From NCBI RefSeq assembly GCF_014196925.1, contig NZ_JACIEN010000002.1, forward strand, positions 186,001 through 250,000: a stretch of DNA of 64,000 nucleotides. Reading direction: 5' to 3'. The position numbers and the translations under genes were made by a program. The DNA is from Chelatococcus caeni (GTDB lineage Bacteria > Pseudomonadota > Alphaproteobacteria > Rhizobiales > Beijerinckiaceae). Of this stretch, positions 50,617-64,000 are shown piece by piece. Positions within the stretch are counted from its first letter, which is position 1. Each line of letters begins with the position of its first letter. The notes beneath the pieces were generated by a model, which was not told the DNA's origin, did not search any database, and saw only the letters and a list, made by a program, of their open reading frames with translations.

Positions 50617-51390
50617 TCAGCGCTCGGCGAAGGCCTTCTCGATGACGAAATGGCCCGGCTCGCCGTGGTTGCCTTCGTTGAAGCCGCGCTCCTCGAGGAT
50701 GATCTTGAGGTCGCGGATCATCTGCGGGCTGCCGCAGAGCATCAGGCGGTCGTTCTCGGCGTCGATCGGCGGCAGGCCGATGTCGCCGAAGAGCTTGCTG
50801 GTCGTGATGAGATCGGTGATGCGGCCGCGGTTGCGGAAGGGCTCGCGCGTCACGGTCGGATAGTAGATCAGCTTCGAGCGGATCTCCTCGCCGAGGAACT
50901 CGTCTTCCGGCAGGTCGCGGGTGATCATCTCGCCATAGGCGAGCTCGGACACCTGGCGGCAGCCGTGCAGGAGGACGACCTTCTCGAAGCGCTCGTAGGT
51001 CTCCGGATCGCGGATCAGGCTGAGGAAGGGGGCAAGGCCGGTGCCGGTGCCGAGCAGGTAGAGGTTGCGGCCATGCATCAGGTTGTCGAGCACGAGGGTG
51101 CCGGTGGCCTTGCGGCCGACGATGATGGGATCACCTTCCTTCAGGTGCTGCAGGCGGGAGGTCAGCGGCCCGTCCGGCACCTTGATGGAGAAGAACTCCA
51201 GCTTCTCGTCGTAGTTGGGGCTCACGACGCTGTAGGCCCGCAGGAGGGGTTTTCCCTCCACCTCGATGCCGATCATCGTGAACTGGCCGTTCTTGAAGCG
51301 GAAGCCGGGGTCGCGCGTCGTCGTGAAGGAGAACAGCGTGTCCGTCCAGTGATGCACGCTCAGAACGCGCTCTTGGTTGAAGTTGCTCAT
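50617..51390 (-). CDS. fpr: Ferredoxin--NADP+ reductase
   Basis: A 257-aa FAD enzyme of the bacterial Fpr class that moves electrons between NADPH and ferredoxin or flavodoxin. FAD site RAYSVVSPNYDEKLEFF (RxYS), NADP site GTGTGLAPFLSLIRD and MLCGSPQMIRDLK, C-terminus GEPGHFVIEKAFAER. It is next to fdxA on the same strand with a 142-bp spacer. Together they could deliver NADPH electrons to the reductase encoded at 60744-62237, although both also have housekeeping roles. Confidence 0.95.
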   Translation of the reverse strand: MSNFNQERVLSVHHWTDTLFSFTTTRDPGFRFKNGQFTMIGIEVEGKPLLRAYSVVSPNYDEKLEFFSIKVPDGPLTSRLQHLKEGDPIIVGRKATGTLVLDNLMHGRNLYLLGTGTGLAPFLSLIRDPETYERFEKVVLLHGCRQVSELAYGEMITRDLPEDEFLGEEIRSKLIYYPTVTREPFRNRGRITDLITTSKLFGDIGLPPIDAENDRLMLCGSPQMIRDLKIILEERGFNEGNHGEPGHFVIEKAFAER

Positions 51391-51532: not shown

Positions 51533-51862
51533 TTACATTTTTTCCGTACTAAATAGAAATTTCTCCTTGTCGGGGACGTCTTTCCACGCGTCCGCATCGT
51601 CCGGGACCGGTCCCTTATCGGTGATGTTGGGCCAGATCGCGGCATATTTCGCATTGACGGGCAGCCAGCGGTCGGCGCGCGGGTCAGTGTCGGAGACGAT
51701 CGCGTCGGCCGGACATTCCGGCTCACACACGCCGCAGTCGATGCATTCGTCCGGATGGATGACGAGCATCGTCTCCCCCTCGTAGAAGCAGTCGACCGGG
51801 CACACCTCCACGCAATCCTGGTACTTGCAACGGATGCAGCCATCGGTCACGACATAGGTCAT
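51533..51862 (-). CDS. fdxA: 7Fe ferredoxin FdxA
   Basis: A 109-aa ferredoxin with one [3Fe-4S] and one [4Fe-4S] cluster. The Cys pattern (9, 12, 17, 21, 25, then 40, 43, 46, 50) matches the Azotobacter FdI type, with [13 protein letters not shown] as the second motif. The C-terminal 50 residues ([15 protein letters not shown]) are the usual extension. It is divergent from the enamidase-like gene across 137 bp holding a palindrome. The last codons and the 3-prime flank are AT-rich. Confidence 0.96.
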
Positions 51863-51897
51863 GCGAACCTCCGGAAGGGCTCTTGCTCGCCTCTGGA

Positions 51898-51915
51898 TTG
51901 TTTGTATACTAACAA
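51898..51915. promoter_or_regulatory. 18-bp palindromic operator between fdxA and the enamidase-like gene
   Basis: TTGTTTGTATACTAACAA is an inverted repeat with only one mismatched pair, centred on GTATAC, a form typical of MarR-family sites. TATACT inside it (51905-51910), with TTGCTC 16 nt upstream, is a possible plus-strand -10/-35, so binding would block the amidohydrolase promoter and perhaps fdxA too. The MarR protein at 53233 is the natural candidate ligand. Confidence 0.6.
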
Positions 51916-51999
51916 ATTAGCGCACCTGATCCGGCTTGTCAATCGGGTCGCGACGCGGGCGGCGAGAGGCCGGTCGAAGCAACGGGAGAGAGGGAACCT

Positions 52000-53196
52000 A
52001 TGGCGCACGACGCGGTACAGCAGGGCGGGAAGGGCAAGCTCGTCATTCGCAACATCGGCCTGATCCTGAGCGGCGATCTCGAGCGGCCGATCCTCGACGG
52101 CGACACGGTGGTCGCGATCGACGGCCGGATCGCCGCCGTCGGCCGCGAGAAGGACGTCGACACCGACGGCGCGAGCGAAGTCATCGATGCCAACGGCACG
52201 GTGCTGACGCCCGGCCTCATCGACAGCCACGTCCACCCCGTCGCCGGCGACTGGACGCCGCGCCAGCAGCAGCTCAACTGGATCGACAGCAACCTGCACG
52301 GCGGCGTCACCACCATGATCTCGGCCGGCGAGGTGCACACGCCGGGCCGGCCGCGCGACGTCGTCGGCCTCAAGGCCATGGCGATCTACGCGCAGCGCAC
52401 CTTCTCCGCCTTCCGCCCGAGCGGCGTGAAGATCCACGCCGGCGCGCCCTGCATCGAGCCGGACATGACGGAGCAGGATTTCAAGGACCTGGCCGACGCG
52501 GGCGTCAAGCTGCTCGGCGAGGTCGGCCTCGGCGGCGTCAAGGACGGGCCGACGGCGCGCAAGATGGTGGCCTGGGCCCGCAAGTACGGCATCCAGTCGA
52601 CCATCCATACCGGCGGGCCGTCCATCCCCGGCTCCGGCCTCATCGACAAGGACGTGGTGCTGGAGGCGGACACGGATGTCGTCGGTCACATCAACGGCGG
52701 CCACACGGCCCTGCCGGACGACCAGATCCGCTGCATCTGTGAGGGCTGCAAGCGCGGCCTCGAGCTGGTGCACAACGGCAACGAGCGGGCCGCGCTCTAC
52801 ACCTTGCGCATCGCGCGCGAGATGGGCGACCTCAACCGCGTCATCCTCGGCACGGATGCGCCGGCGGGCTCCGGCGTGCAGCCGCTCGGCATCCTGCGCA
52901 TGGTCTCGCTGCTCTCCTCGCTCGGTGACGTGCCGGCGGAGGTGGCCTTCTGCTTCGCCACCGGCAACACGGCGCGCATGCGCCAGCTCGACTGCGGCCT
53001 GGTCGAGGTCGGCCGCGCGGCCGATTTCGTGCTGATGGACAAGGCCCAGCACTCGGCGGGCAAGGACCTGCTCGAGTCCGTGCGCCTCGGCGACCTGCCG
53101 GGCATCGGCATGACCATCATCGACGGCATCGTGCGCACGCAGCGCAGCCGCAACACCCCGCCGGCGACGCGCATGCCGGAGATCGTAGCGGGATAG
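52000..53196 (+). CDS. Enamidase-like amidohydrolase
   Basis: A 398-aa dinuclear metal amidohydrolase resembling Eubacterium barkeri enamidase. That enzyme hydrolyses 1,4,5,6-tetrahydro-6-oxonicotinate to 2-formylglutarate. Motifs: TPGLIDSHVHPVAGD (HxH), LLGEVGLGG (a Glu where many relatives have a carbamylated Lys; I recall this for enamidase), TIHTGGPSIPG, VGHINGGHTA and ILGTDAPAGSG (catalytic Asp). Plus strand, divergent from fdxA and convergent with the regulator and transporter operon, next to the reductase that would make its substrate. Enamidase activity is inferred. Confidence 0.8.
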   Translation: MAHDAVQQGGKGKLVIRNIGLILSGDLERPILDGDTVVAIDGRIAAVGREKDVDTDGASEVIDANGTVLTPGLIDSHVHPVAGDWTPRQQQLNWIDSNLHGGVTTMISAGEVHTPGRPRDVVGLKAMAIYAQRTFSAFRPSGVKIHAGAPCIEPDMTEQDFKDLADAGVKLLGEVGLGGVKDGPTARKMVAWARKYGIQSTIHTGGPSIPGSGLIDKDVVLEADTDVVGHINGGHTALPDDQIRCICEGCKRGLELVHNGNERAALYTLRIAREMGDLNRVILGTDAPAGSGVQPLGILRMVSLLSSLGDVPAEVAFCFATGNTARMRQLDCGLVEVGRAADFVLMDKAQHSAGKDLLESVRLGDLPGIGMTIIDGIVRTQRSRNTPPATRMPEIVAG

Positions 53197-53232
53197 GGCG
53201 CACGCGTTTCCGGCCGCGGGGTCGGAAGCGCG

Positions 53233-53664
53233 TCAGAGCATCTTCTGCAGCAGGGCGAGCAGCGTCGCGCGTTCCGCGGCGCTCAGTTCCTTCAGCGTTT
53301 CCTCGGAGATGGCGGCGGCCCGGGGCAGGCAGCGTGCGACGGTCGCCTCGCCCTCCGGCGTCAGGGCCACGAGCAGGCGCCGGCCATCGTCGGGGTCGGG
53401 GCTCGTCCCGGTCAGGCCGCGCTTCGTCAGCCGGTCGACGACGCCCTTGATGGTGGCGGCGTCCATGGCCGTCTGCCGGCCGAGGAGGTTCTGCGACAGC
53501 GGGCCGGCCTGGTGGAGCTTGGCGAGCGCCGCCCATTGGGTCGGCGTCAGGTCCTCGCCCATCATGGTCATGAAGATGGTCGTGTGGCGCTGGCTGACCT
53601 GGCGGAGGATGAAGCCGATCTGCTCGTCGAGAACATAGGCTGGCGTCGAAACGGCTGAGGTCAT
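53233..53664 (-). CDS. MarR family transcriptional regulator of the heterocycle cluster
   Basis: A 143-aa regulator: YVLDEQIGFILRQVSQRH (dimer helix), LTPTQWAALAKL, QNLLGRQTAMDAATIKGVVDRLTKRGL (HTH) and the wing DPDDGRRLLVALTPEG. I use the ATG at 53664 (MTSAVSTPAYVL) with GGAG 6 nt upstream; the frame extends 20 codons without similarity. It is the last gene of the catabolic and transport operon, 37 bp after livF. By analogy with NicR of Pseudomonas it may sense a pathway acid and act at the palindrome 51898-51915. Confidence 0.88.
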   Translation of the reverse strand: MTSAVSTPAYVLDEQIGFILRQVSQRHTTIFMTMMGEDLTPTQWAALAKLHQAGPLSQNLLGRQTAMDAATIKGVVDRLTKRGLTGTSPDPDDGRRLLVALTPEGEATVARCLPRAAAISEETLKELSAAERATLLALLQKML

Positions 53665-53701
53665 CGATACTCCGGTCCGGGCGGCGATCTCTCGCCGCCT
53701 A

Positions 53702-54406
53702 TCACACTGCAAGATAAGCGTCACGAATGTCGGGGCTCTCCTCGAGCTCGCGGATCGTGCCGCCGAAGCGGATGCGCCCGCTCTCGATGATATAGGCCCT
53801 GTCGGAGATCAGCCGCGCGAAATGCAGGTTCTGCTCCGAGAGGACGATGCTGAGGCCTTCGTTCTTCATGGCGAGGATGGCGTTCGCCATCTCTTCGACG
53901 ATCTTGGGGGCGAGGCCTTCCGAGGGCTCGTCGAGGAGGACGAGGGAGGGGTTGCCCATCAGCGTGCGGGCGATGGTCAGCATCTGCTGCTCGCCGCCGC
54001 TCATGCGCCCGCCGAGGCGCCCGCGCATCTCGCCGAGATTGGGAAAGAGCGTGTAGAGCTTCTCCGGCGTCCAGCGGGGGGCGCCCGTCCGCTCCGGCTG
54101 CTCGCCGACCATGAGGTTCTCCTCCACCGTCAGCTCGGTGAAGATGCGCCGGTCCTCGGGCACGTAGCCGAGGCCGCGGCGCACGATCTCGTGCGTCGGG
54201 CGCGCCGTGATGTCCTCGCCCTCGAAGAGGATGCGCCCCTCGCGCCGGGCGACGAGCCCGACGATGGAGCGGAAGGTGGTGGACTTGCCGGCGCCGTTGC
54301 GGCCGAGGAGGGCGACCACCTCGCCGGGGCCGACGTTGATGTCGACGTCGAAGAGGATATGGGCCGGCCCGTAGAAGCTGTTGAGCTGGTGGACTTCGAG
54401 TTTCAT
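53702..54406 (-). CDS. livF: Branched-chain-type amino acid ABC transporter ATPase LivF
   Basis: A 234-aa ATPase: Walker A GRNGAGKST, signature MSGGEQQM, Walker B LVLLDEPSEGL, H-loop region VLSEQNLHFA, and the LivF-type YVPEDRRIFTELTVEENL. It energises import by the LivHM permease as a heterodimer with LivG. Its ATG overlaps the livG stop by 4 bp. Liv-type systems in catabolic islands often carry aromatic or heterocyclic acids rather than leucine, so the substrate here may be the compound degraded by the linked enzymes. Confidence 0.94.
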   Translation of the reverse strand: MKLEVHQLNSFYGPAHILFDVDINVGPGEVVALLGRNGAGKSTTFRSIVGLVARREGRILFEGEDITARPTHEIVRRGLGYVPEDRRIFTELTVEENLMVGEQPERTGAPRWTPEKLYTLFPNLGEMRGRLGGRMSGGEQQMLTIARTLMGNPSLVLLDEPSEGLAPKIVEEMANAILAMKNEGLSIVLSEQNLHFARLISDRAYIIESGRIRFGGTIRELEESPDIRDAYLAV

Positions 54407-55176
54407 GCCGCGGCCTCTCCGCCATAGACGCTGCCTTCGCCGAGATAGACGGCCTTGACGTCCGGGTTGTTGCGCACCTCGGCCGGCGTGCCGCCCGCGA
54501 TGAGGCTGCCGCGGTTCAGCACCATGATCCGGTCCGCATGCTCGAAGACGACGTCCATGTCGTGTTCGGTGAAGAGCACGCCGATCGACTGCTCGCGCGC
54601 GATCGTCGCGGTGAGGCGCATCAGCGCGACGCGCTCCTTCGGCGCCATGCCGGCCGTCGGCTCGTCCATCAGGAGGAGCCTCGGCTCGTTGACGAGGGCG
54701 ATGGCGAGCTCGAGGCGCTTCAGGTCGCCATAGGCGAGCTCGCCACACGGCCGCTCCGCGAGGTCGCGCATGCCGACGAGCCCGAGCAGCCGGTCGGCCT
54801 CGGCGTGGTGGCGCGCGCCGGCGAAGCCGAACAGGCGGCCGAGCTCGCGGTGGTGCGAGAGCAGCGCCACCTGCACGTTCTCGCGCACCGTCATCGAGGG
54901 ATAGGTGGCGGTGATCTGGAAGGTGCGGCCGACGCCGAGACGCCAGATCTCGCGCGGGCGCAGGCCGGCCGTGTCGCGGCCGAGGATCCTGACCGAACCG
55001 GTGTCGCGGCTGATCTGGCCGTTGAGCATGTTGAAGCACGTGCTCTTGCCGGCGCCGTTGGGACCGATGAGGGCGAGGATCTCGCCGGCGGCGAGGGTGA
55101 AGGACACGCCCCTGACCGCATGCACGCCGCCATAGGACTTCGACAGGTTCTCGACTTCGAGGATGGGCGTGCTCAT
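54403..55176 (-). CDS. livG: Branched-chain-type amino acid ABC transporter ATPase LivG
   Basis: A 257-aa ATPase: Walker A GPNGAGKST, LivG-specific VGRTFQITATYPSMTVREN, signature LAYGDLKRLEL, Walker B LLLMDEPTAGMAP and FTEHDMDVVFEHADRI. The C-terminus includes PAEVRNNPDVKAVYLG. The ATG at 55176 overlaps the permease stop; longer upstream frames belong to another reading frame. Confidence 0.94.
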   Translation of the reverse strand: MSTPILEVENLSKSYGGVHAVRGVSFTLAAGEILALIGPNGAGKSTCFNMLNGQISRDTGSVRILGRDTAGLRPREIWRLGVGRTFQITATYPSMTVRENVQVALLSHHRELGRLFGFAGARHHAEADRLLGLVGMRDLAERPCGELAYGDLKRLELAIALVNEPRLLLMDEPTAGMAPKERVALMRLTATIAREQSIGVLFTEHDMDVVFEHADRIMVLNRGSLIAGGTPAEVRNNPDVKAVYLGEGSVYGGEAAA

Positions 55177-57122
55177 CGTGCGGCCTCCATCTTGGGGGCG
55201 GCGATCGGGGCGGCGCCGCTGCCGGACGTCGGGGCGGTTGCCTTCGCGGGTGCGGTCCGCGCCGCGCTGCCGCCGTCGTCGGCCCGGGTGCGGCGGCGGG
55301 CCAGGAGGTCCTCCGCGAAGCCGACGATGCCCTTGGGGAAGGCGACGACGAGCAGCACGATGATGGCGCCGAGCACGAGCTTCGACAGGTCCGTCTGGCT
55401 GACGAGCCAGATGGCGAGCGCCTTGTAGACGATGGCGCCGACGACGGCCCCCGACACCGTCTCGATGCCGCCGAGCAGCACCATGACGAGCCCGTCGACC
55501 GACATCGGGATGGCGAGGTTGTCCGGGAAGACGCTGCCCTTCAGGAAGGCGAAGAGCGCCCCGGCGATGCCCGCGAAGGTGCCGGCGATGACGAAGGCGG
55601 CCCACTGCACGCGCGAGCGGTCAATGCCGATCGCCTCCGAGCGCAGGGCGGAATCGCGCGTTGCCCTGAGCGCATAGCCGAAGGGTGAGAAGACGAGCAC
55701 CCTGAGCGCCACGATGCCGATGACCGAGACGGCGAGCGCCAGCCAGTAGAAGGTGGCGGGGCTCGAGGCCCAGCTCGCCGGCCACACGCCGAGGATGCCG
55801 TTGTCGCCGCCGGTGACCTCGACCCACTGGAAGGCGATGGACCAGGCGATCTGCGCGAAGGCGAGCGTCAGCATGGCGAAATAGACGCCCGACAGGCGCA
55901 CGCAGAACCAGCCGAAGAGGATGGCGCCGGCCACCCCGAGCAGCGGCCCCAGCAGGAGCGAGCCGATCATCGGCATGCCGAACATGGTGGTGGCGAAGGC
56001 CGCGCCATAGGCGCCGAGGCCGAAATAGGCCGCATGGCCGAAGGAGGCGAGGCCGCCGACCGTCATCAGGAAGTGCAGGCTCGCCGCGAAGAGGGCGAAG
56101 ACGGCGATCTCGGCCAGCACCGTCAGCGCGTAGTCGCCGGTGACGAAGGGCGCGAAGCCCGCGGCGACGACAACGGCGAGCATGATGAGGCGCTGGTTCT
56201 GGCTCATCGGCCGCCAGGGGCGGATGCTGAGCCCGGCCGGCTGGCGGGCCGGGCCTTCGGCGCGCCCGAGCAGGCCCCACGGCCGCACGATGAGCACGCA
56301 GGCCATGACGAGGAAGACGAGGACGATCGAGATCTTGGGAAAGATCAGGATGCCGAAGGCGTTGAGCTCGGAGACGAGCACCGCGGCGATGAAGGCGCCG
56401 AGCACGCTGCCGAGCCCGCCGATGACGACGACGACGAAGACCTCGACGATGATGGAGAGATCCATGAGATGGGTGACGGCGTTGCGCGGGATCTGCAGCG
56501 CGCCGCCGAGGCCGGCGAGGAAGATGCCGAGCGCGAAGACCGAGGTGAACAGCCAGGTCTGGTTGACGCCGAGGGCCGCCACCATGTCGCGGTCCTGGGT
56601 CGCGGCGCGCACGAGGACGCCCCAGCGGGTGCGGTGGAAGAGGATCCACAGGCCGCCGAGCACGAGCGGGCCGAGCACGATGAGGAAGAGGTCGTAGGTC
56701 GGCACCGCGAGGCCGAGGATATCGACCGCGCCGCGCAGCCCGGGCGCACGTGGCCCGACGAGGTCCTCCGGGCCCCAGATCATGACGACGAGGTCCTGCA
56801 CCATCAGCGTCACGCCGAAGGTCGCGAGCAGCTGGAACAGCTCCGGCGCGCGATAGATGCGGCGCAGCAGCACGATCTCCAGCAGCGCGCCGACGGCCGC
56901 GACGACGAGGGCCGCGACGACGATGCCGCCCCAGAAGCCGAAGAAGCCCTCGAACCGGTCGGTGAGCGTATAGGCCACATAGGCGCCGAGCATGTAGAAG
57001 GCGCCGTGGGCGAAGTTCACGATGCGCGTGACGCCGAAGATGATCGACAGGCCGGACGCGACGAGGAACAGGGAAGCCGCGCTGGCGAGGCCTGTCAGGA
57101 ACTGGACGACGAAGAATTCCAC
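55173..57122 (-). CDS. Fused LivH-LivM permease of a branched-chain-type ABC transporter
   Basis: A single 649-aa membrane protein holding both permease halves. The LivH part is about 1-300 (GLSIIFGVTRIVNFAHGAFYM, LVRAATQDRDMVAALGVN, EVFVVVVIGGLGSVLGAF). The LivM part is about 315-610 (LMTVGGLASFGHAAYFGLGA, RDSALRSEAIGIDRSR, MVLLGGIETVSGAVVG). The C-terminus is an A/P-rich tail. I place the start at GTG 57122, which fits LivH alignments and has AGAGGG upstream. An ATG at 57197 inside the adjacent repeat would add 25 unconserved residues and cannot be excluded. Confidence 0.9.
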   Translation of the reverse strand: MEFFVVQFLTGLASAASLFLVASGLSIIFGVTRIVNFAHGAFYMLGAYVAYTLTDRFEGFFGFWGGIVVAALVVAAVGALLEIVLLRRIYRAPELFQLLATFGVTLMVQDLVVMIWGPEDLVGPRAPGLRGAVDILGLAVPTYDLFLIVLGPLVLGGLWILFHRTRWGVLVRAATQDRDMVAALGVNQTWLFTSVFALGIFLAGLGGALQIPRNAVTHLMDLSIIVEVFVVVVIGGLGSVLGAFIAAVLVSELNAFGILIFPKISIVLVFLVMACVLIVRPWGLLGRAEGPARQPAGLSIRPWRPMSQNQRLIMLAVVVAAGFAPFVTGDYALTVLAEIAVFALFAASLHFLMTVGGLASFGHAAYFGLGAYGAAFATTMFGMPMIGSLLLGPLLGVAGAILFGWFCVRLSGVYFAMLTLAFAQIAWSIAFQWVEVTGGDNGILGVWPASWASSPATFYWLALAVSVIGIVALRVLVFSPFGYALRATRDSALRSEAIGIDRSRVQWAAFVIAGTFAGIAGALFAFLKGSVFPDNLAIPMSVDGLVMVLLGGIETVSGAVVGAIVYKALAIWLVSQTDLSKLVLGAIIVLLVVAFPKGIVGFAEDLLARRRTRADDGGSAARTAPAKATAPTSGSGAAPIAAPKMEAAR

Positions 57123-57195
57123 GGACGCGACCCTCTGGTTCTGGTCAGGCCCGGCGTCGTTGCGCCGGGGTTCGCTGGGCTGAGCGACGCTGCTC

Positions 57196-57365
57196 ATTCC
57201 CTCCCCCCCTTGCGGGGGAGGGTAGGGAGGGGGCACCTGGATGACCGCCGTGTTCTTGCGTCACGGCCTCCACCCCCACCCCTCCCCGAGCAAGTCGAGT
57301 GATCCCGGCTTGCTCTTCCCAAGATCCCTTCCCGGGTGAATCCGAGATGGGTGGGGGAGGGGAAT
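57196..57365. repeat. 170-bp MITE-like element with terminal inverted repeats
   Basis: Lies between livK and the permease gene. The left end (from 57196) reads ATTCCCTCCCCC and the right end (to 57365) reads GGGGGAGGGGAAT, a near-perfect terminal inverted repeat. Inside are further C-rich and G-rich tracts that pair (AGGGAGGGGGCACC with CCACCCCCACCCCTCC). No open frame. It is probably a non-autonomous palindromic repeat of the kind scattered in rhizobial genomes, lodged inside an operon; 57237-57414 holds no gene. Confidence 0.65.
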
Positions 57366-57414
57366 AGCCGCTCTCGCTACGGCAGCGGCGCTCCTTAACG
57401 CTTCAGCCGCAACA

Positions 57415-58620
57415 TCACCCCTGCGGCCTGAGCTGCTTCACGTCCTCTTCGGACGGCAGGTAGTTGGCGCCGTCGCGATAGACGGAATCGACCATAACGC
57501 CCTTGCCGTCGCGTACGTCGGTCTTGCCGACATAGGCGCCGAGCGTCGACTGGTGGTCGGTCGCGCGGAAGACGATCTTGCCGAAGGGCGTGTCGACCTC
57601 GACGCCCTTGGCGGCGGCGACGAGCTTGTCGGTCTCCGTCGAGCCGGCCTTGGCGAGGACGGCCGCGACCGCCTTCATCGTGCCGTAGCCGACGATGGAG
57701 CCGAGGCGCGGATAGTCGTTGAACTTCGCCTGGTAGGCCTTGAGGAAGGCGTCGTGCTCGGGCGTCTTGATGTCGTACCAGGGATAGCCGGTGACGATCC
57801 AGCCCTTGGGGGTCTCGTCCTTGAGGGGGTCGAGATATTCGGGCTCGCCGGTGAGGAAGCTGACGACCGAGCGGTCCTTGAACAGGCCGCGGGTGTTGCC
57901 CTCGCGCACGAACTTCACGAGGTCGGCGCCGAAAGTGACGTTGAGGATGGCTTCGGGCTTCGACGCGAGCAGCGCCTGCGCCACCGCGCCGGCGTCGATC
58001 TTGCCCTGCGGCGGCCACTGCTCGTCCACCCATTCGATATCCGGCCGGGCCTTCGAGAGAAGCTCCTTGAACACCGCGACGGCCGACTGGCCGTATTCGT
58101 AGTTCGGCGCCACCGTCGCCCAGCGCTTGGCCGGCAGCTTGGCCGCCTCTTCGGCCAGCATCGCCGCCTGCATGTAGTTGGAGGGGCGCAGGCGGAAGGT
58201 GTAGTCGTTGCCCTTGGACCAGGTGATGGCGTCCGTCAGCGGCTCGGCTGCCATGAAGAACACCTGCTTCTGCTTGGCGAAATCGGCCACGGCCAAGCCG
58301 ATGTGCGAGAAGAAGGTGCCGGTGATGAGCGCCACGCCCTCGCGCGAGACGAGCTCGTTGGCGGCCGTCACGGCCTCGGCCGGCTTGCCGGCGTCGTCCT
58401 TGGAGATGACGACGAGCTTCTTGCCGTCGACGCCGCCCTTGGCATTGATCTCCTCGATGGCGAGCTGCCAGCCCTTGCGGTAGGGCTCGGTGAAGGCCGG
58501 CAGGGCCGAATAGCTGTTGATCTCGCCGATCTTGATCTCGCCCTGGGCTCGGGCGGCGCCGGTGGCCGCGACAATGGCCAGGGCTGCAAAGGCTACCGAT
58601 TTTCGCAATCTCGTCCGCAT
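57415..58620 (-). CDS. Branched-chain-type ABC transporter substrate-binding protein LivK
   Basis: A 401-aa periplasmic protein with a signal peptide (RLRKSVAFAALAIVAATGAARA, cut near AQG). A type I binding fold follows: IKIGEINSYSALPAFTEPYR, VISKDDAGKPAEAVTAANEL, AVVAPNYEYGQSAV-like ATVAPNYEYGQSAVAVF, and GYGTMKAVAAVLAKAG. It captures the ligand for the LivHMGF importer just downstream. The ligand is unknown; linkage to the reductase and hydroxylase genes suggests a heterocyclic carboxylate. The DUF1185 gene ends 48 bp upstream. Confidence 0.92.
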   Translation of the reverse strand: MRTRLRKSVAFAALAIVAATGAARAQGEIKIGEINSYSALPAFTEPYRKGWQLAIEEINAKGGVDGKKLVVISKDDAGKPAEAVTAANELVSREGVALITGTFFSHIGLAVADFAKQKQVFFMAAEPLTDAITWSKGNDYTFRLRPSNYMQAAMLAEEAAKLPAKRWATVAPNYEYGQSAVAVFKELLSKARPDIEWVDEQWPPQGKIDAGAVAQALLASKPEAILNVTFGADLVKFVREGNTRGLFKDRSVVSFLTGEPEYLDPLKDETPKGWIVTGYPWYDIKTPEHDAFLKAYQAKFNDYPRLGSIVGYGTMKAVAAVLAKAGSTETDKLVAAAKGVEVDTPFGKIVFRATDHQSTLGAYVGKTDVRDGKGVMVDSVYRDGANYLPSEEDVKQLRPQG

Positions 58621-58668
58621 GTGCTCTCTCCCGTTATCGTCCGCGCCCGTCCCCTCTGGTCTGGACCG

Positions 58669-59253
58669 TCAGCGCAAGCCGTCCTCACCCTTGATCTCTT
58701 GCTTCGTCAGCCCGCCGACGCGCGGCAGCGGCCGGCCGGAATCCGTGACGGCGACCGCCACCAGGATCTCGCCCGCGCGCGGTGCGTCGTTGAGGCTGAC
58801 CTCCATGCCGTCGAAGTGGCTCCGCACATAGGCGGCATCCTTGTGGCCGAGCGGGATGTCGAGCACCGCGCCCGGCCCGCCGCGTTTCTTCGAGGAGGGA
58901 ATGAGCGCTGCGCCCTTGCCCAGCACCTTGCGCACCGGCGTGCCCATGCGCGGGTGCAGGATGGCGGCGGCATGCTCCAGCTCGCCGTTCTCGCCGACGA
59001 GCGCCGCCTTGCCGTAGCTCTCGGCCGCCTGCCCCTCGATGCCCAGCGCCGCGACGGCCTTCTCCGCCAGGAAGCCGCCGAGCTCCTCGCCGATGTCCAT
59101 GAGCTCGCCGAGGTCCTCGACATAGCGCCCGGCAAAGGGGTTCTCGATCACGGCGACAGCCGCGGCCTTGCGGGTCGGCGGGCTCACCAGCCGGCCCATC
59201 TCGGTGTGGGTTTCCTCGACGAATGTCGCGATCTTGCGGATCTTCGCCTTCAT
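58669..59253 (-). CDS. DUF1185 / 'amino acid synthesis' family protein, copy 1
   Basis: A 194-aa soluble protein of the AA_synth family (formerly DUF1185). Motifs shared with the next gene: VAVIENPFAGRYVEDL (about 33-48), SYGKAALVG, GELEHAAA, SSKKRGGPGAVLD, YVRSHFDGMEV and the C-terminal EIKGEDGLR. A structure of one member shows a chorismate-mutase/YjgF-like trimeric fold (from memory), and no reaction is established. The ATG at 59253 overlaps the stop of copy 2. A role in a ring-opening or tautomerising step is inference from context. Confidence 0.85.
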   Translation of the reverse strand: MKAKIRKIATFVEETHTEMGRLVSPPTRKAAAVAVIENPFAGRYVEDLGELMDIGEELGGFLAEKAVAALGIEGQAAESYGKAALVGENGELEHAAAILHPRMGTPVRKVLGKGAALIPSSKKRGGPGAVLDIPLGHKDAAYVRSHFDGMEVSLNDAPRAGEILVAVAVTDSGRPLPRVGGLTKQEIKGEDGLR

Positions 59254-59834
59254 CTCAGGCCGTCCTCTCCCTTGATCTCGCTCGCCTTCAGCCCGCCGAC
59301 GCGGGCGTGGATGCGCGGCCCCGTCGTCATGACGAGGATGACCGCCATCTCGTCGGCGCGCGGGGAATCGGGGATGCCCACCTCCATGGCGTCGAAATGG
59401 CTGCGCACGTAGGAAGCGTTGATGTGCGTGACCGGCACGTCGAGGCGCGCGCCCGGCCCGCCGACCTTCTTGGTCGAGGGCACGATGGCCTTGGCATCGC
59501 CCAGGGCCTCGCGCATGGCATAGCCGCCGGGCACGTGCCACAGCGCGCCGTGCTCCAATTCGCCCGCGGCGCCGACGATGGCGCCCTTGCCGTAGCCCTC
59601 GATCGCCGCGACGTCGCCGCCGAGGGCGGCGATGAGGTCCCGCGCCATGGCGAGGCCGAGGGGCTTCAGGTCGTCCATGAAGCCGGCGATGTCCTCGACA
59701 TGGCGGCCGGCGAAGGGATTGGCGATCACGGCGACGATGGCGCCGCGCTTGAGGGGCCTTGCGGCCGGCTGGCCGCCCTCGTGGAAGATCTCCTCCACCG
59801 TGATCAGGCGCTTGCGGACATCGACGTCAGGCAT
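59250..59834 (-). CDS. DUF1185 / 'amino acid synthesis' family protein, copy 2
   Basis: Also 194 aa and clearly paralogous to copy 1: VAVIANPFAGRHVEDI, GYGKGAIVG, GELEHGAL, STKKVGGPGARLD, YVRSHFDAMEV, and an identical EIKGEDGLR end. It begins with an extra VRKRLITVEEIFHEGG. The two genes overlap by 4 bp, and this one overlaps the UPF0280 gene by 8 bp, so all are translationally coupled and probably made in matched amounts. The pair may form a mixed oligomer. Confidence 0.85.
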   Translation of the reverse strand: MPDVDVRKRLITVEEIFHEGGQPAARPLKRGAIVAVIANPFAGRHVEDIAGFMDDLKPLGLAMARDLIAALGGDVAAIEGYGKGAIVGAAGELEHGALWHVPGGYAMREALGDAKAIVPSTKKVGGPGARLDVPVTHINASYVRSHFDAMEVGIPDSPRADEMAVILVMTTGPRIHARVGGLKASEIKGEDGLR

Positions 59835-60747
59835 GGATTTGACCCGTCTCCCGGAAAGTGTCAGCCGGCCGCGGCGCGGGCGCCGCGACGGTGGGTGCGG
59901 CCGGCAGCGAGCCTACCGTTCGCGTATGACCTTGCAAATGCAATGCCGCGGCGATGATCAGTCCGCGGTGGAGAAGCGCCTGCGCGAAGCCGCAGCCGGC
60001 GTCGAGCGCCGCCGCGATGTCGATATCGTCGAGGCGGCGCACGGCGCGCGTCACGGGGCGCTCGCCGAGGTCGCTCTCCGGCGCGAGCACCGAGGCCGGC
60101 ACGCGCGTGACGGCGGGATGGCCCGGCAGGTCGACGGCGTTGGCGATCATGGTCGCGGCCGCATCCGCTGCCGCCGCGTCGCGGGCGAGCACGGTGACCG
60201 CGTCGGCGATGCCCAGCGAGAAACTACGCCCGTGCCGGCCGCTCGTGGCGATACCGCCGATGCCATGGGCGGCGGTGAGGCTGAGGGTGCCGAAAAGGCC
60301 CGGCTCGTCCGGCCGGTCCACCATGCCGATGGAGAAGGTGCTGGCCGCGCTAAGATGGAGCGCGATGTCGCCGCCGTTGTTGACATAGGCCTTGTCGAGC
60401 CGCGCCACGGCGAGCATGGCGGCGAGGACCTCGTCCGCATCGGCGCCGGCGACGGCCGCCATAGGCGTGATGAAGCCGTCGGCTGCATGGGGCATGACGG
60501 CTCCCTGCATGCGCCGCGCGACCGCGCCGGCGAGCGGCGGATCGCCAGGGCGCGCCTGCCGCCGCAGCGCCGGCAGTTCGGCGCACAGCTCGTCGAGCAG
60601 GGTCGCGAAGCGCCGCGCCGCGGCCTCATAGGCGCGCGCCACCTCGCCCGCTTCGCCGAAGGCCTCGATGATGAGGTCGATCGGGCCGTGCTGCAGGTGC
60701 AGCCGGCGCCCGTCGGGCAGCATGCGGGCGGTGGCGGCGTCCCTCAT
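59827..60747 (-). CDS. UPF0280 family protein with ApbE-like fold
   Basis: A 306-aa protein of family UPF0280. Its core shows the ApbE (FMN transferase) pattern: NNGGDIAL (about 123-130), GGIATSGRHGRSFSLG (about 164-179) and DAVTVLARDAAAADAAAT (about 182-199), equivalent to the nucleotide and metal region of ApbE. The C-terminal 80 residues carry an A/P-rich end. The ATG at 60747 overlaps the stop of the reductase gene. ApbE enzymes attach FMN covalently to proteins; a flavinylation role on the adjacent reductase is my inference. Confidence 0.82.
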   Translation of the reverse strand: MRDAATARMLPDGRRLHLQHGPIDLIIEAFGEAGEVARAYEAAARRFATLLDELCAELPALRRQARPGDPPLAGAVARRMQGAVMPHAADGFITPMAAVAGADADEVLAAMLAVARLDKAYVNNGGDIALHLSAASTFSIGMVDRPDEPGLFGTLSLTAAHGIGGIATSGRHGRSFSLGIADAVTVLARDAAAADAAATMIANAVDLPGHPAVTRVPASVLAPESDLGERPVTRAVRRLDDIDIAAALDAGCGFAQALLHRGLIIAAALHLQGHTRTVGSLPAAPTVAAPAPRPADTFRETGQIHA

Positions 60748-62237
60748 CCGTGCGACCTTTTCGCCTTCTGCGGCGACAGCGGCCAGGGATTGTCCAGGCG
60801 GTGCGGCACCTGCCGGCGCGCCTCGCCCGGCTCGAGCGACGAGACCGGCCGGACCTCGCCCATATGGCCGCCGAGCGCCTCGTAGTCGCTCAGCCGCATC
60901 GTGAACTCGATGGGCGCGACGAGGGCCGGCGTCGGCACGTAGCCGAAGGCGTTCTCCGGCACGCGCGTCACGTCCACCATGAAGGTGATGCCGCCGCCGG
61001 GCCAGACATAGACCGGCGCGCCGCCGCAGGTGACATAGGTGAGCGCGTCCTTGACGGAGAGGGTGAGGCGCACCGGGTTCTCGGTGACGCCGGCGCGCAG
61101 CGAGCCGCCGGCCCCGCCCATGAAGAGCACGGTGCACAGGGCGGGCTCGCAGTTCTCCTTGATGCGCTCGACCGACTGGCGCAGCGCCTCGGGCAGCGCG
61201 CGCTCGACCGGCGTCAGCGTCTCGTCGAGCTCGTAATAGGCATGGTGCTCGCCGGTGGTGGAGACCATGAGGAGCCGGAGGCCCGGCCGCGCCACCTTGG
61301 GGTCGAAGGGGCCGAGGATCGACAGGGGATCGGAGATGTTGGTGCCGCCCCAGCCCGTGCCCGGCTCCGCCACCTGGAAGTAGCGGCCCGGGGTCGAGCG
61401 CCGGCCCTTCATCTTGATGCCGGTCTCGGGGATGTCGAGCAGCTTGCCGGCCTGGTGCTCGGAGAGGACGCCGGTGATGTGATCGTCGACTACCACCACC
61501 TCGTCGACCTTGCCGTGCCACTGCTTGGCGAACATGCCGATGGTGGCCGAGCCGCAGCCGACGCGCATGCGCTCCTCGGCGACGCCGTTGACGATCGGCG
61601 GCTTGCCGGCCTGAACGACGACGGTGGTGCCGTCGTCGATGGTCATTTCCACCGGCTTGCCGTTGCACAGGTCGAGCAGGGCGTCGCAGGTGATGCGGCC
61701 TTCCTTCTTCGAGCCGCCGGTCAGGTGATGCACGCCGCCGAGCGACAGCATCTGCGAGCCGTATTCGCCGGTGGTGACGTGGCCGACGGCCTCGCCCTCG
61801 ACGCGCACGGTCGCCTGCTCCGGGCCGAGGTGGCGGTCGGTGTCGATCTTCACCTTGACGCCGCAATAGCTGAAGATGCCCTCGGTGACGACCGTCACCA
61901 TGTCCACCCCGTCCACCTCGGACGAGACGATGAAGGGCGCGGGCTTGTAGTCGGGATAGGTGGTGCCGGCGCCGATGGCGGTGACGAAGGTCTCCTCGCC
62001 CTGGACGATGGTGCCGTCCCACTCGCCCTTGTTGAAGGGCACCACGTTGCCGCCCTGGGCAAGCGTACGCTCCAGCACCACGTGCGGGTCGATGCGCACC
62101 AGCTCGCCCTCGTGGTTGGCGTAGCGGTCGCAGGCGCCCGTCATGCCCGGCTTGATGTAGCACATCACCGGGCAGGCATCGCAGCGGATCTTGTCGTCCT
62201 TGGCCGCGCCCGGCGCGGCCGCCTGTTCGTTCTGCAT
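60744..62237 (-). CDS. 6-hydroxynicotinate reductase-like Fe-S protein
   Basis: A 497-aa soluble protein. The N-terminus holds a CxxCxxxCx9C cluster motif (RCDACPVMC, then GACDRY; Cys 19, 22, 26, 36) for a [4Fe-4S] centre. Conserved blocks include GIFSYCGVKVKIDTD, YGSQMLSLGGVHHLTGGSK and MRVGCGSATIGMFAK. In E. barkeri the enzyme of this name reduces 6-hydroxynicotinate to 1,4,5,6-tetrahydro-6-oxonicotinate with reduced ferredoxin. It is coupled to UPF0280 (ATGA) and 1 bp from the hydroxylase gene upstream. The exact substrate here is unproven. Confidence 0.82.
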   Translation of the reverse strand: MQNEQAAAPGAAKDDKIRCDACPVMCYIKPGMTGACDRYANHEGELVRIDPHVVLERTLAQGGNVVPFNKGEWDGTIVQGEETFVTAIGAGTTYPDYKPAPFIVSSEVDGVDMVTVVTEGIFSYCGVKVKIDTDRHLGPEQATVRVEGEAVGHVTTGEYGSQMLSLGGVHHLTGGSKKEGRITCDALLDLCNGKPVEMTIDDGTTVVVQAGKPPIVNGVAEERMRVGCGSATIGMFAKQWHGKVDEVVVVDDHITGVLSEHQAGKLLDIPETGIKMKGRRSTPGRYFQVAEPGTGWGGTNISDPLSILGPFDPKVARPGLRLLMVSTTGEHHAYYELDETLTPVERALPEALRQSVERIKENCEPALCTVLFMGGAGGSLRAGVTENPVRLTLSVKDALTYVTCGGAPVYVWPGGGITFMVDVTRVPENAFGYVPTPALVAPIEFTMRLSDYEALGGHMGEVRPVSSLEPGEARRQVPHRLDNPWPLSPQKAKRSHG

Positions 62238-62238
62238 G

Positions 62239-64000
62239 TCAGCCTCGTGCGCCTCTGGCGGCGAGAAGGGCGGCGCGCACCCGGTCGGGCGTCGCCGGCA
62301 CGCGGCGGATGCGCACGCCGGTGGCGTCGTGGATGGCGTTGAGGATGGCCGGAGCGGTCGGGATCAGCGCCTGTTCGCCGATGCCCTTGGCGCCGAAGGG
62401 GCCGACGGGCGAGGCATCCTCGACGAGGATCGACTCGACCGGCGGCATGTCCCCCGCCGAGGGGATGAGATAGTCGTGCAGGTTCTCGCCCTTGCCGGGG
62501 AAGAACTCCTCCATCAGCGCAAGGCCGAGGCCTTGCGCGGCGCCGCCCTCGATCTGTCCCTCGACGAGGGTCGGGTTGATGGCGCGGCCGACGTCGTGCG
62601 CCGCGGTGATCTTGAGGGCCTTCACCGTGCCGAGCGCGGTGTCGACCTCGACCTCCACCATATGGGCGCCGAAGCCGTAGACGGCGTAGGGGATGCCCTG
62701 GCCGTCGGCATCGAGCGGGCTCGTCGGCGGGTCGAAGGTGGCTTCGCCGGTCAGCAGGTAGCCGTGCTCGTCGGCCGGCAGATCGGCCAGGGCGATGGCG
62801 CGCTCGTGGCCGCCGTCGCGTACCGTGACCGCATCGTCGGCGAAGCTGACCGTCGCGCCCTCGCCGGCATTGGCGAGGCGCAGGATGGCGGCGCGCAGCT
62901 CGCGGCCCGCGAGTTCGGCCGCCTTGCCAGTAACGAAGGTCTGGCGCGAGGCGGAGGTCTTGCCGCAGTCGGGCGTCAGGTCCGTGTCGGCCGAGACGAG
63001 ATCGAAGCGGGCAATCGGCGCGCCGAGCGCGTCGGCGCAGATCTGGGTGATGACGGTGTTGGAGCCCTGGCCGATGTCGACCGCGCCCTGGTGCAGCGCA
63101 ATGCGCCCGTCGCGCTTCAGGCCGACGCGGATGGTGGAGGGATTGGGCAGCGAGGTGTTGCCGCAGCCGTACCACATGCCGGCGACGCCGACGCCGCGGC
63201 GCAGCCGGCCGTCGCCCTTGCCGTCGCTCGTCGCATTGAAGGCGGCCGCCTCGGCCAGAGCGCGCTGCCAGTGCGGCACAAGGGCTTCGAAACAGGCGCG
63301 GATGCCGACACCTTCGCCGAGCACCTGGCCGGTCACGGTCGGCTGGTCGGCGCGTAGCGCGTTGCGCAGGCGGAATTCCAGCCGGTCCATGCCGATCTTG
63401 TCGGCGAGCTCGTCGTAGAGCTGCTCCTGCGCGATGCCCGCCTGCGGCACGCCGAAGCCGCGGAAGGCGCCGGCGGGCACGAGGTGGGTGTGCACGGCGC
63501 GCGTCAGCGCCCGGTAATGCGGCACATAATAGGGGCCGGAGGCGTGGACCGGCACGCGATTCGCCACGGTCGGGCCCCAGGAGGAATAGGCGCCGGTGTT
63601 GAAGTCGCCGAGAAAATCGAGGCCGACGAGCCTGCCGTCCTGCGTCGCGCCCGCCCGCGCCCTGATGCGCGCCGGGTGGCGCTTCGTCGTCGTCATGATC
63701 GACTCGGGGCGCGTGTAGGTCATGCGCACCGGCCGGTCGAGGTGCCAGGCGGCGATGGCGATGAAGGGCTGCACCGAGAGGTCGAGCTTGGAACCGAAGC
63801 CGCCGCCGACGGCGGTCGGGATGATGCGCACGGCCTCGGGCGCGATGCTGAGCACCTTGGCGACGTCGTCGCGGTCCATGTAGGGCGCCTGGGTGCAGGC
63901 CTGCACCTCGATGCGCTCGCCGACGCGGCGGGCAAAGCCGGCCTCCGGCTCGATATAGGCGTGCTCGACGAAGCCGGTCTCGAATTCGCCGTCGACGACC
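62239..64000 (-). CDS. Xanthine dehydrogenase-family molybdopterin-binding subunit (partial)
   Basis: Runs off the right edge; 587 codons are visible, including the C-terminus. It is the large Mo-cofactor subunit of a hydroxylase. Motifs: AVGGGFGSK, GAYSSWGPTVANRV, GAFRGFGVPQA (substrate and Moco channel), DIGQGSNTVI, and the active-site Glu motif GAKGIGEQALIP near the end. Such enzymes hydroxylate N-heterocycles next to nitrogen, for example nicotinate to 6-hydroxynicotinate. The FAD and 2Fe-2S subunits should lie beyond 64000. First visible gene of the operon. Confidence 0.92.
   Translation of the reverse strand, partial: VVDGEFETGFVEHAYIEPEAGFARRVGERIEVQACTQAPYMDRDDVAKVLSIAPEAVRIIPTAVGGGFGSKLDLSVQPFIAIAAWHLDRPVRMTYTRPESIMTTTKRHPARIRARAGATQDGRLVGLDFLGDFNTGAYSSWGPTVANRVPVHASGPYYVPHYRALTRAVHTHLVPAGAFRGFGVPQAGIAQEQLYDELADKIGMDRLEFRLRNALRADQPTVTGQVLGEGVGIRACFEALVPHWQRALAEAAAFNATSDGKGDGRLRRGVGVAGMWYGCGNTSLPNPSTIRVGLKRDGRIALHQGAVDIGQGSNTVITQICADALGAPIARFDLVSADTDLTPDCGKTSASRQTFVTGKAAELAGRELRAAILRLANAGEGATVSFADDAVTVRDGGHERAIALADLPADEHGYLLTGEATFDPPTSPLDADGQGIPYAVYGFGAHMVEVEVDTALGTVKALKITAAHDVGRAINPTLVEGQIEGGAAQGLGLALMEEFFPGKGENLHDYLIPSAGDMPPVESILVEDASPVGPFGAKGIGEQALIPTAPAILNAIHDATGVRIRRVPATPDRVRAALLAARGARG

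Follow-up and report, generated by a model that had tools for sequence, protein, structure and literature searches.

The last part of a 64,000-nucleotide stretch of Chelatococcus caeni DNA (hereafter the window; positions 1-64000 correspond to 186001-250000 of contig NZ_JACIEN010000002.1, G000:C2) raises two questions: which compound do its genes serve to degrade, and what do the UPF0280 and DUF1185 genes contribute? An earlier note had read positions 51533-64000 as a catabolic island that holds a Mo-hydroxylase, a protein like 6-hydroxynicotinate reductase (Hnr), an enamidase-like hydrolase, a Liv-type importer, a MarR regulator, the ferredoxin FdxA and the reductase Fpr. Every one of these frames is intact and the inventory is matched by family or solved-structure searches, so the named genes stand; the left limit does not, because Fpr (50617-51390) lies just outside it.

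Gene content and predicted operator

The hydroxylase is encoded on the contig as a single 929-aa 2Fe-2S and Mo polypeptide (62239-64000, minus strand, cut by the window edge and continuing to contig position 251028) with a separate FAD subunit to the right of the window (contig positions 251030-251926), as delineated by contig frames and by the MoCoBD, 2Fe-2S and FAD domains found in a family search of the window and its right flank. Extension beyond position 64000, which the earlier note had proposed, thus recovered both the FAD subunit and the 2Fe-2S domain. Also on the minus strand are hnr (60744-62237, assigned by orthology), the UPF0280 (COG2122) gene (59827-60747; NF003322, 394.8 bits, cut-off 290), whose frame shares four bases with the end of hnr, two tandem DUF1185/AA_synth genes (copy a, 59250-59834, PF06684 240.5 bits, PDB 3BYQ and 2QTP; copy b, 58669-59253, PF06684 248.5 bits; cut-off 27), livK for the substrate-binding protein (57415-58620; PF13458, E = 3.6e-71), livH and livM fused into one permease gene according to the frame calls (55173-57197, longest frame to 57236; one 674-aa frame, a single gene in annotated locus L151 too), livG (54403-55176) and livF (53702-54406), both called as frames in the order of annotated loci L151 and L152, and the MarR family regulator (53233-53664, longest frame from 53724; PF01047). 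The enamidase ortholog is on the plus strand (52000-53196). It is followed to the left by fdxA, encoding a 7Fe-type ferredoxin (51533-51862, minus strand; NF045490 FdxA_Protbact, 158.8 bits, cut-off 135), and the ferredoxin--NADP reductase-like fpr on the minus strand, which has FAD/NAD-binding domains and a best NCBIfam match, NF008178, of 173.8 bits that does not reach the cut-off of 390.

The palindrome TTNGTATACNAA is common to the promoters of the main operon, the ferredoxin gene and the enamidase gene. Within the divergent fdxA/enamidase promoter the operator is predicted, without strand, as TTTGTATACTAA at 51901-51912 (extended site 51901-51916), and a second predicted operator lies beyond the FAD subunit gene at contig positions 251944-251955. 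Exact extended sites occur only twice genome-wide, both times inside the island. Core sites number 87 across 49 of 80 related loci, whereas 19 permuted palindromes average 0.16, and none of those in the related loci falls within annotated cluster genes; in the fpr-fdx gap (P3) a shared site was absent above shuffles. To judge from these sites, the three promoters likely form one regulon, with the MarR regulator, acting at the predicted operator, as the likely common control of the main operon, fdxA-fpr and the enamidase gene. The layout of one operon plus one convergent gene that had been proposed therefore falls short of the arrangement seen, as the operator is common to the main operon and the divergent fdxA/enamidase gap. 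The operator is usable for finding pathway members in genomes.

A probable reductive nicotinate pathway and its ring opening

The same gene set was found again in named genomes and on plasmids when searched for across genomes, and this recurrence places it far beyond chance. Hnr is closest to the record of Chelatococcus sambhunathii (98%) and has identities of 79-98% to named Hyphomicrobiales records and of 60-80% to 26 plasmid records. Many of the plasmid records are annotated as '6-hydroxynicotinate reductase', and it is this orthology that identifies the protein. Searches of Pfam and NCBIfam returned no family for Hnr at E ≤ 0.001, and its structural model, weak at pLDDT 69.6, matched nothing in the PDB at E ≤ 0.001. 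Two resemblances, each found in 41 of 42 Hnr members, are hints only: residues 126-161 are GCV_T_C-like (best E 3e-4), and the N-terminal Cys motif resembles AmmeMemoRadiSam proteins (best E 1e-3). Residues 13-395 of the enamidase-like protein match the Eubacterium barkeri enamidase 2VUN as best solved structure (E = 3.8e-110), with the HxH motif, the Glu of GEVGLG, two later His and an Asp aligned identically. Neither reductase nor amidohydrolase thus falls among unrelated families, the former grouping with annotated 6-hydroxynicotinate reductases and the latter with the E. barkeri enamidase. The sequence of hydroxylation, reduction and enamide hydrolysis suggested earlier is borne out, and the hydroxylase, Hnr and enamidase logic is like that of the nicotinate fermentation cluster of E. 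barkeri, reportedly described by Alhapel in 2006.

The island is a further example of an already published reductive nicotinate (vitamin B3) cluster. The link to Azorhizobium made in the earlier note is supported: the cluster has been published for Azorhizobium and Bradyrhizobiaceae, namely Azorhizobium caulinodans ORS571, Bradyrhizobium japonicum USDA110, Rhodopseudomonas palustris HaA2 and strain SG-6C, for the last of which degradation of nicotinate and 6-hydroxynicotinate has been demonstrated (PMC3511419). These clusters encode the first three steps, an ABC transporter and two conserved proteins of unknown function, as in C. caeni, whereas C. caeni has two DUF1185 genes and an in-cluster ferredoxin gene. 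The order hnr-UPF0280-DUF1185-livKHMGF-marR-enamidase-fpr is common to Bradyrhizobium loci and the island; the hydroxylase in these loci is a NicA/NicB-like pair, in contrast to the XDH-like enzyme of C. caeni with its FAD subunit and fused 2Fe-2S/Mo chain.

We put at roughly 80% the reading that the island encodes inducible, respiration-compatible catabolism along the reductive Azorhizobium/E. barkeri route, with nicotinate or a closely related pyridine carboxylate as substrate. By orthology, the substrate would be imported by the Liv-type ABC transporter and 6-hydroxylated by the XDH-like Mo/2Fe-2S/FAD hydroxylase, Hnr would reduce 6-hydroxynicotinate to tetrahydro-6-oxonicotinate (THON), and the enamidase would hydrolyse the ring to 2-formylglutarate and ammonia. 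Later breakdown would take place elsewhere and pass through glutarate, the continuation published for Azorhizobium and for proteobacteria (PMC3511419). It is quite improbable that the island instead serves another N-heterocycle or lactam, such as another pyridine carboxylate. The best NCBIfam matches of the hydroxylase are all under cut-off and family models do not fix its substrate, nor is a Liv-type transporter diagnostic; against this stand the conservation of Hnr and enamidase with the cluster of the nicotinate and 6-hydroxynicotinate degrader SG-6C and the presence of nicotinamidase and nicotinate phosphoribosyltransferase genes about 10 kb or less from the operon start, which may be coincidence.

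Electrons would pass from NADPH via Fpr and FdxA to Hnr, itself probably matured by UPF0280. Fpr is encoded at 30 and FdxA at 4 of 54 full-length related loci, and at 3 and 0 of 68 loci in the class sample, respectively; they are therefore not fixed cluster members. The supply of electrons by ferredoxin, as proposed in the earlier note, stands as a plausible idea.

Just 30 of 68 Hnr-positive genomes have the enamidase ortholog. HyuA/HyuB lactamase-type genes are frequent at loci of the 38 enamidase-less genomes (16/24 versus 1/25), where the HyuA of locus L157 best matches the caprolactamase alpha subunit (498.6 bits, not reaching the cut-off of 1000); no HyuAB is found near some enamidase-less loci (e.g. 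L162, L164, L167, L184, L186 and L187). Such ATP-dependent lactam hydrolases, which are absent from the window, would open THON in the clusters without enamidase, which predicts a second, ATP-dependent way to open the reduced nicotinate ring. Occurrence of DUF1185 tracks the enamidase (30/30 genomes with the ortholog versus 29/38 Hnr-positive genomes without it), and in 4 of the 13 matches to enamidase paralogs DUF1185 is no more than 120 bp away. It is not obligate, being missing from 9 of 68 Hnr-positive genomes. Tentatively, DUF1185 may handle the enamine/semialdehyde product of the enamidase. No support was found for reading UPF0280 and DUF1185 as signs of a new pathway variant.

UPF0280 as a companion of Hnr

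What is new is that UPF0280, a protein shaped like a flavin-attaching enzyme, accompanies Hnr across genomes. It is present in 68/68 Hnr-positive versus 1/317 Hnr-negative genomes, the single match being weak (E = 6e-4), and adjoins hnr at 79 of the 81 GTDB/plasmid loci, irrespective of hydroxylase type, ring-opening gene or DUF1185. Locus L090, which lacks UPF0280, is no exception, as an intact copy is found on another contig of the same genome. A role in hydroxylase maturation was rejected because UPF0280 occurs beside both hydroxylase types. A dedicated role for Hnr, in maturation or as a partner of any kind, is very probable. It is improbable that UPF0280, rather than modifying Hnr, serves it as a stable subunit or electron-transfer partner: the strict co-occurrence and the overlapping genes would fit this equally well, but the protein has an ApbE fold, and the E. 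barkeri reductase is a single-subunit-type enzyme.

The UPF0280 model (pLDDT 91) matches 15 PDB entries at E ≤ 0.001, all of which are either 2O34, from the same family, or ApbE/FmnB/Ftp flavin transferases; the latter occupy ranks 3-15 with probabilities of 0.99-1.00, and TM-scores to ApbE are just 0.34-0.48. With the fold, UPF0280 shares the metal-site Asp/Thr and the Ser of ApbE/FmnB enzymes, equated by motif and not by superposition (Ser169 in 136/136, Asp195 in 135/136 and Thr199 in 136/136 rows, which are redundant). It differs in lacking their HxxDP-type catalytic His, as no His is conserved in residues 160-207 and Arg174 occurs there instead (135/136 rows). The window protein scores 19.1 bits against Pfam ApbE (PF02424), under the gathering score of 25.6, and this model matches 36 of 45 UPF0280 members at E ≤ 1.

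The chances appear even that UPF0280 is an ApbE-like maturation enzyme that attaches covalent flavin to Hnr. This prediction leans on the covalent flavin that E. barkeri Hnr reportedly carries. The ApbE client motif D-x-x-[ST]-G-A-[ST] (DxxSGAT) has no full match in Hnr; the nearly invariant SLRAGVT (379-385) fits only 2 of 5 positions, and GSAT232 was rejected as the flavin site, being GSAA in 4 of 19 sequences, with Ser/Thr at T232 in 92% of 119 rows.

Alternatively, UPF0280 might move no flavin and assist Hnr at a step involving a persulfide or Fe-S, in line with what has been proposed for COG2122/DUF39. Homocysteine synthesis in sulfate reducers has a genetic requirement for COG2122, which in D. 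vulgaris is needed together with DUF39 (fitness r=0.98), and Rauch and colleagues proposed a persulfide role for the two proteins (PMC5764234). The solved member of the family, 2O34, is DVU1097. The eight conserved Cys of Hnr and the missing ApbE catalytic His also suit such a step. We consider it unlikely, given that UPF0280 retains the ApbE-type metal Asp/Thr and Ser, that the nicotinate route needs no sulfur transfer, and that Hnr is not detectably related to DUF39 (PF01837 unmatched in 42 Hnr members at E ≤ 10). In the compared genomes the client would be Hnr: DUF39, which is the other partner known for COG2122, is absent in 69/69.

The broader proposal, to which we give slightly less than an even chance, is that UPF0280/COG2122 forms a divergent branch of the ApbE fold dedicated to attaching a cofactor to Hnr, with no canonical His and a non-canonical target, and that in roughly half of the Hnr clusters of alphaproteobacteria an ATP-dependent HyuAB lactamase has taken the place of the enamidase. 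Genome comparison ties the widespread 'unknown' family UPF0280/COG2122 to a soluble, assayable catabolic enzyme, which opens the question of COG2122 function to a co-expression experiment. If true, a cofactor-attachment activity of UPF0280 on Hnr would also explain why COG2122 is required with DUF39 in homocysteine synthesis.

A conserved nicotinate-type cluster

On the minus strand, starting in the right flank and running into the window, the genes for a FAD subunit, a fused 2Fe-2S/Mo subunit, 6-hydroxynicotinate reductase (Hnr), UPF0280 (COG2122 family), two DUF1185 proteins, LivK, a fused LivHM, LivG, LivF and MarR follow one another, with overlaps of 4–8 bases between adjoining genes of the hnr-UPF0280-DUF1185 stretch. 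The enamidase gene lies on the plus strand, convergent with marR, and beyond it follow fdxA and then fpr on the minus strand. The earlier note had proposed a reductive nicotinate-type island and had suggested looking to the right of the window for FAD and 2Fe-2S hydroxylase subunits, which are present there as the FAD subunit and the 2Fe-2S part of the fused 2Fe-2S/Mo subunit. The proposal was borne out: the island is confirmed as a known, published and conserved cluster type, and its enamidase matches the solved Eubacterium barkeri enamidase (2VUN) at E = 3.8e-110. Gene order is identical along the whole locus in Chelatococcus sambhunathii DSM 18167 (L040), whose Hnr is 98% identical to that of the window. 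According to PMC3511419, Azorhizobium caulinodans, Bradyrhizobium japonicum, Rhodopseudomonas palustris HaA2 and strain SG-6C share the conserved cluster; SG-6C degrades nicotinate and 6-hydroxynicotinate, and its Hnr and the E. barkeri enzyme are 42% identical. The route leads from 6-hydroxynicotinate via tetrahydro-6-oxonicotinate (THON) to 2-formylglutarate, the last step being hydrolytic opening and deamination by the bifunctional E. barkeri enamidase (PMC9304392). Genes for nicotinate phosphoribosyltransferase and nicotinamidase, both above NCBIfam cut-offs, lie right of the window (L009:13359-14651 and L009:16434-17072 of the window's own locus with right flank), less than about 10 kb from the operon start; they could supply nicotinate from nicotinamide, or their proximity could be coincidence.

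Hnr was detected in 68 of 385 genomes of an even alphaproteobacterial sample (the class sample) and in 32 of 398 sampled from the phylum. Scanning GTDB with Hnr gave at least 592 relatives, and the best 80 of these, which were used here, are mostly Hyphomicrobiales with many Bradyrhizobium, so that the rows cannot be treated as independent. Within the 80, eight entries with acidobacterial titles are all MAGs (loci L071, L077, L082, L088, L095, L097, L099, L113). Their contigs have the same hydroxylase-hnr-UPF0280 order, with Hnr 75–79% identical to the window protein, and DUF1185 occurs in seven of the eight loci, the eighth (L088) ending at a contig edge. Cross-phylum transfer or a binning error is the likely explanation.

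Operator and electron supply

The extended operator TTTGTTNGTATACAAA has exactly two mismatch-free sites in the genome, one ahead of the FAD-subunit gene and one in the gap separating fdxA from the enamidase gene. With up to two mismatches allowed, the genome holds five matches versus two for the backward control. The best 16-mer common to both promoters is identical at 15 of 16 positions (12–13 in 20 shuffles). The palindromic core, TTNGTATACNAA, is present in 49 of 80 related loci with 87 sites in total, against a mean of 0.16 for 19 permuted palindromes; annotated cluster genes contain none of these sites, and all except four lie no more than 400 bp from the start of such a gene. In the class sample 13 of 67 loci carry the core, one site each, where the controls average 0.53 sites and reach at most 3. 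A looser site with three mismatches precedes hyuA in two loci (L115, L118). We infer that MarR binds this operator. Because they share it, Fpr and FdxA are part of the island here. In the first set of loci (GTDB relatives and chosen plasmids), 54 are full-length; Fpr occurs in 30 of these and FdxA in four, and in the class sample in three and none of 68 loci, respectively; genomes other than that of the window must feed electrons to Hnr from elsewhere.

UPF0280 as a predicted Hnr maturation enzyme

UPF0280 was matched in 69 of the 385 alphaproteobacterial genomes, namely all 68 with Hnr and G143 (Fisher p = 1e-75, shared ancestry ignored). G143, which has neither Hnr nor DUF39, the other known COG2122 partner, gave a weak UPF0280/ApbE-like match (G143:C2:572218-572610, E = 6e-4). 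Neighbourhoods were counted in 84 loci, the best 80 from GTDB and four hand-chosen from 26 plasmid matches, leaving out three with fewer than 900 bases downstream: of the 81 that remained, 80 contain UPF0280 and 79 have it next to hnr. In L066 it lies 8 kb away; it is missing from the locus L090, whose genome has an intact copy elsewhere. DUF39 was detected in none of the 69 genomes. Judged from this gene content, with UPF0280 in every Hnr-positive genome and DUF39 absent, Hnr, or something linked to it, is the one possible client of UPF0280 in these bacteria.

The E. barkeri Hnr reportedly carries a covalent flavin, and is said to hold three Fe-S clusters, which would require more ligands than eight cysteines. 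Cys19, 22, 26, 36, 125, 184, 228 and 363 of Hnr, the eight checked, are fixed or nearly so in 119 rows. Hnr (window positions 60744-62237) has no solved relative; residues 12-46 form an N-terminal Cys motif weakly similar to AmmeMemoRadiSam proteins, and residues 126-161 weakly resemble the glycine cleavage T-protein barrel (each in 41 of 42 members).

A PDB search with the UPF0280 AlphaFold2 model (pLDDT 91) gave 15 matches at E ≤ 0.001: two chains of 2O34, a member of the same family, and otherwise FmnB/ApbE/Ftp flavin transferases throughout, the latter at low TM-scores of 0.34–0.48. Like ApbE, UPF0280 keeps Ser, Asp and Thr (Ser169, Asp195, Thr199 and Gly125-Gly126-Asp127 in 135–136 of 136 aligned rows), but it lacks the conserved ApbE His and has a fixed Arg174; the ApbE motif, triad and metal assignments applied here follow in part PMC12052999. 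A flavin role has a rival in the persulfide role proposed for COG2122 in PMC5764234. That paper shows COG2122 to be required for homocysteine synthesis and states that its homology seemingly leaves out the flavin-binding region, which speaks against the flavin reading. Among the matches listed from the open-licence literature, no paper ties UPF0280 (COG2122/DUF375/PRK04334/IPR037456) to Hnr, and none joins ApbE or flavin transferase with 6-hydroxynicotinate. UPF0280 as an Hnr maturation enzyme is put forward as a predicted lead.

Ring opening and DUF1185

Enamidase was found at E ≤ 1e-30 in 33 of the 68 Hnr-positive genomes, 30 with an ortholog (69% identity or more) and three with a 37–40% paralog alone. 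Class-sample loci were fetched around Hnr for the 38 genomes without an ortholog and for 29 of the 30 with one, the thirtieth being L009. Among loci of at least 18 kb, 16 of the 24 that lack enamidase have HyuA or HyuB close to hnr, versus one of 25 enamidase-positive loci (p = 3e-6; 21 of 38 versus one of 30 with short loci counted). Enamidase and Hyu never occur together in the 54 full-length first-set loci, in which Hyu is present in four of 15 lacking enamidase, two of the four being hand-picked plasmids. The Hyu proteins are full hydantoinase A/B; for the one HyuA examined, caprolactamase alpha is the best match, with a score under that family's cut-off. This distribution suggests that HyuAB opens THON in enamidase-less clusters, and points to two solutions to ring opening. 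A literature search found no paper combining 6-hydroxynicotinate and hydantoinase.

DUF1185 occurs in 59 of 68 Hnr-positive versus 23 of 317 Hnr-negative genomes, and in 30 of 30 Hnr-positive genomes with an enamidase ortholog versus 29 of 38 without. In several split clusters (L193, L195, L200, L207, L216, L211, L219) it lies beside enamidase and not beside hnr. Four of 13 enamidase paralog matches have it within 120 bp, away from hnr (G300:C1:1039468-1041262, G378:C2:602390-604153, G210:C1:100028-101812, G381:C1:344089-345836; paralogs about 40% identical), perhaps representing a related lactam or enamide pathway. Solved DUF1185 members have a chorismate-mutase-like fold (PMC2954203), and for the homolog TgnF a stimulating effect on a semialdehyde oxidation during trigonelline degradation is reported (PMC7913881); given these and the enamidase linkage, DUF1185 would act at an enamine or semialdehyde stage. 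Within the fetched stretch, DUF1185 was not detected in seven HyuAB-bearing Hnr clusters (L166, L173, L157, L168, L170, L176, L190), and so seems dispensable where HyuAB is the ring-opening enzyme.

Two leads extend beyond the known cluster type: UPF0280 as a maturation enzyme of Hnr, which would be new, and HyuAB in place of enamidase, which would be a variant.
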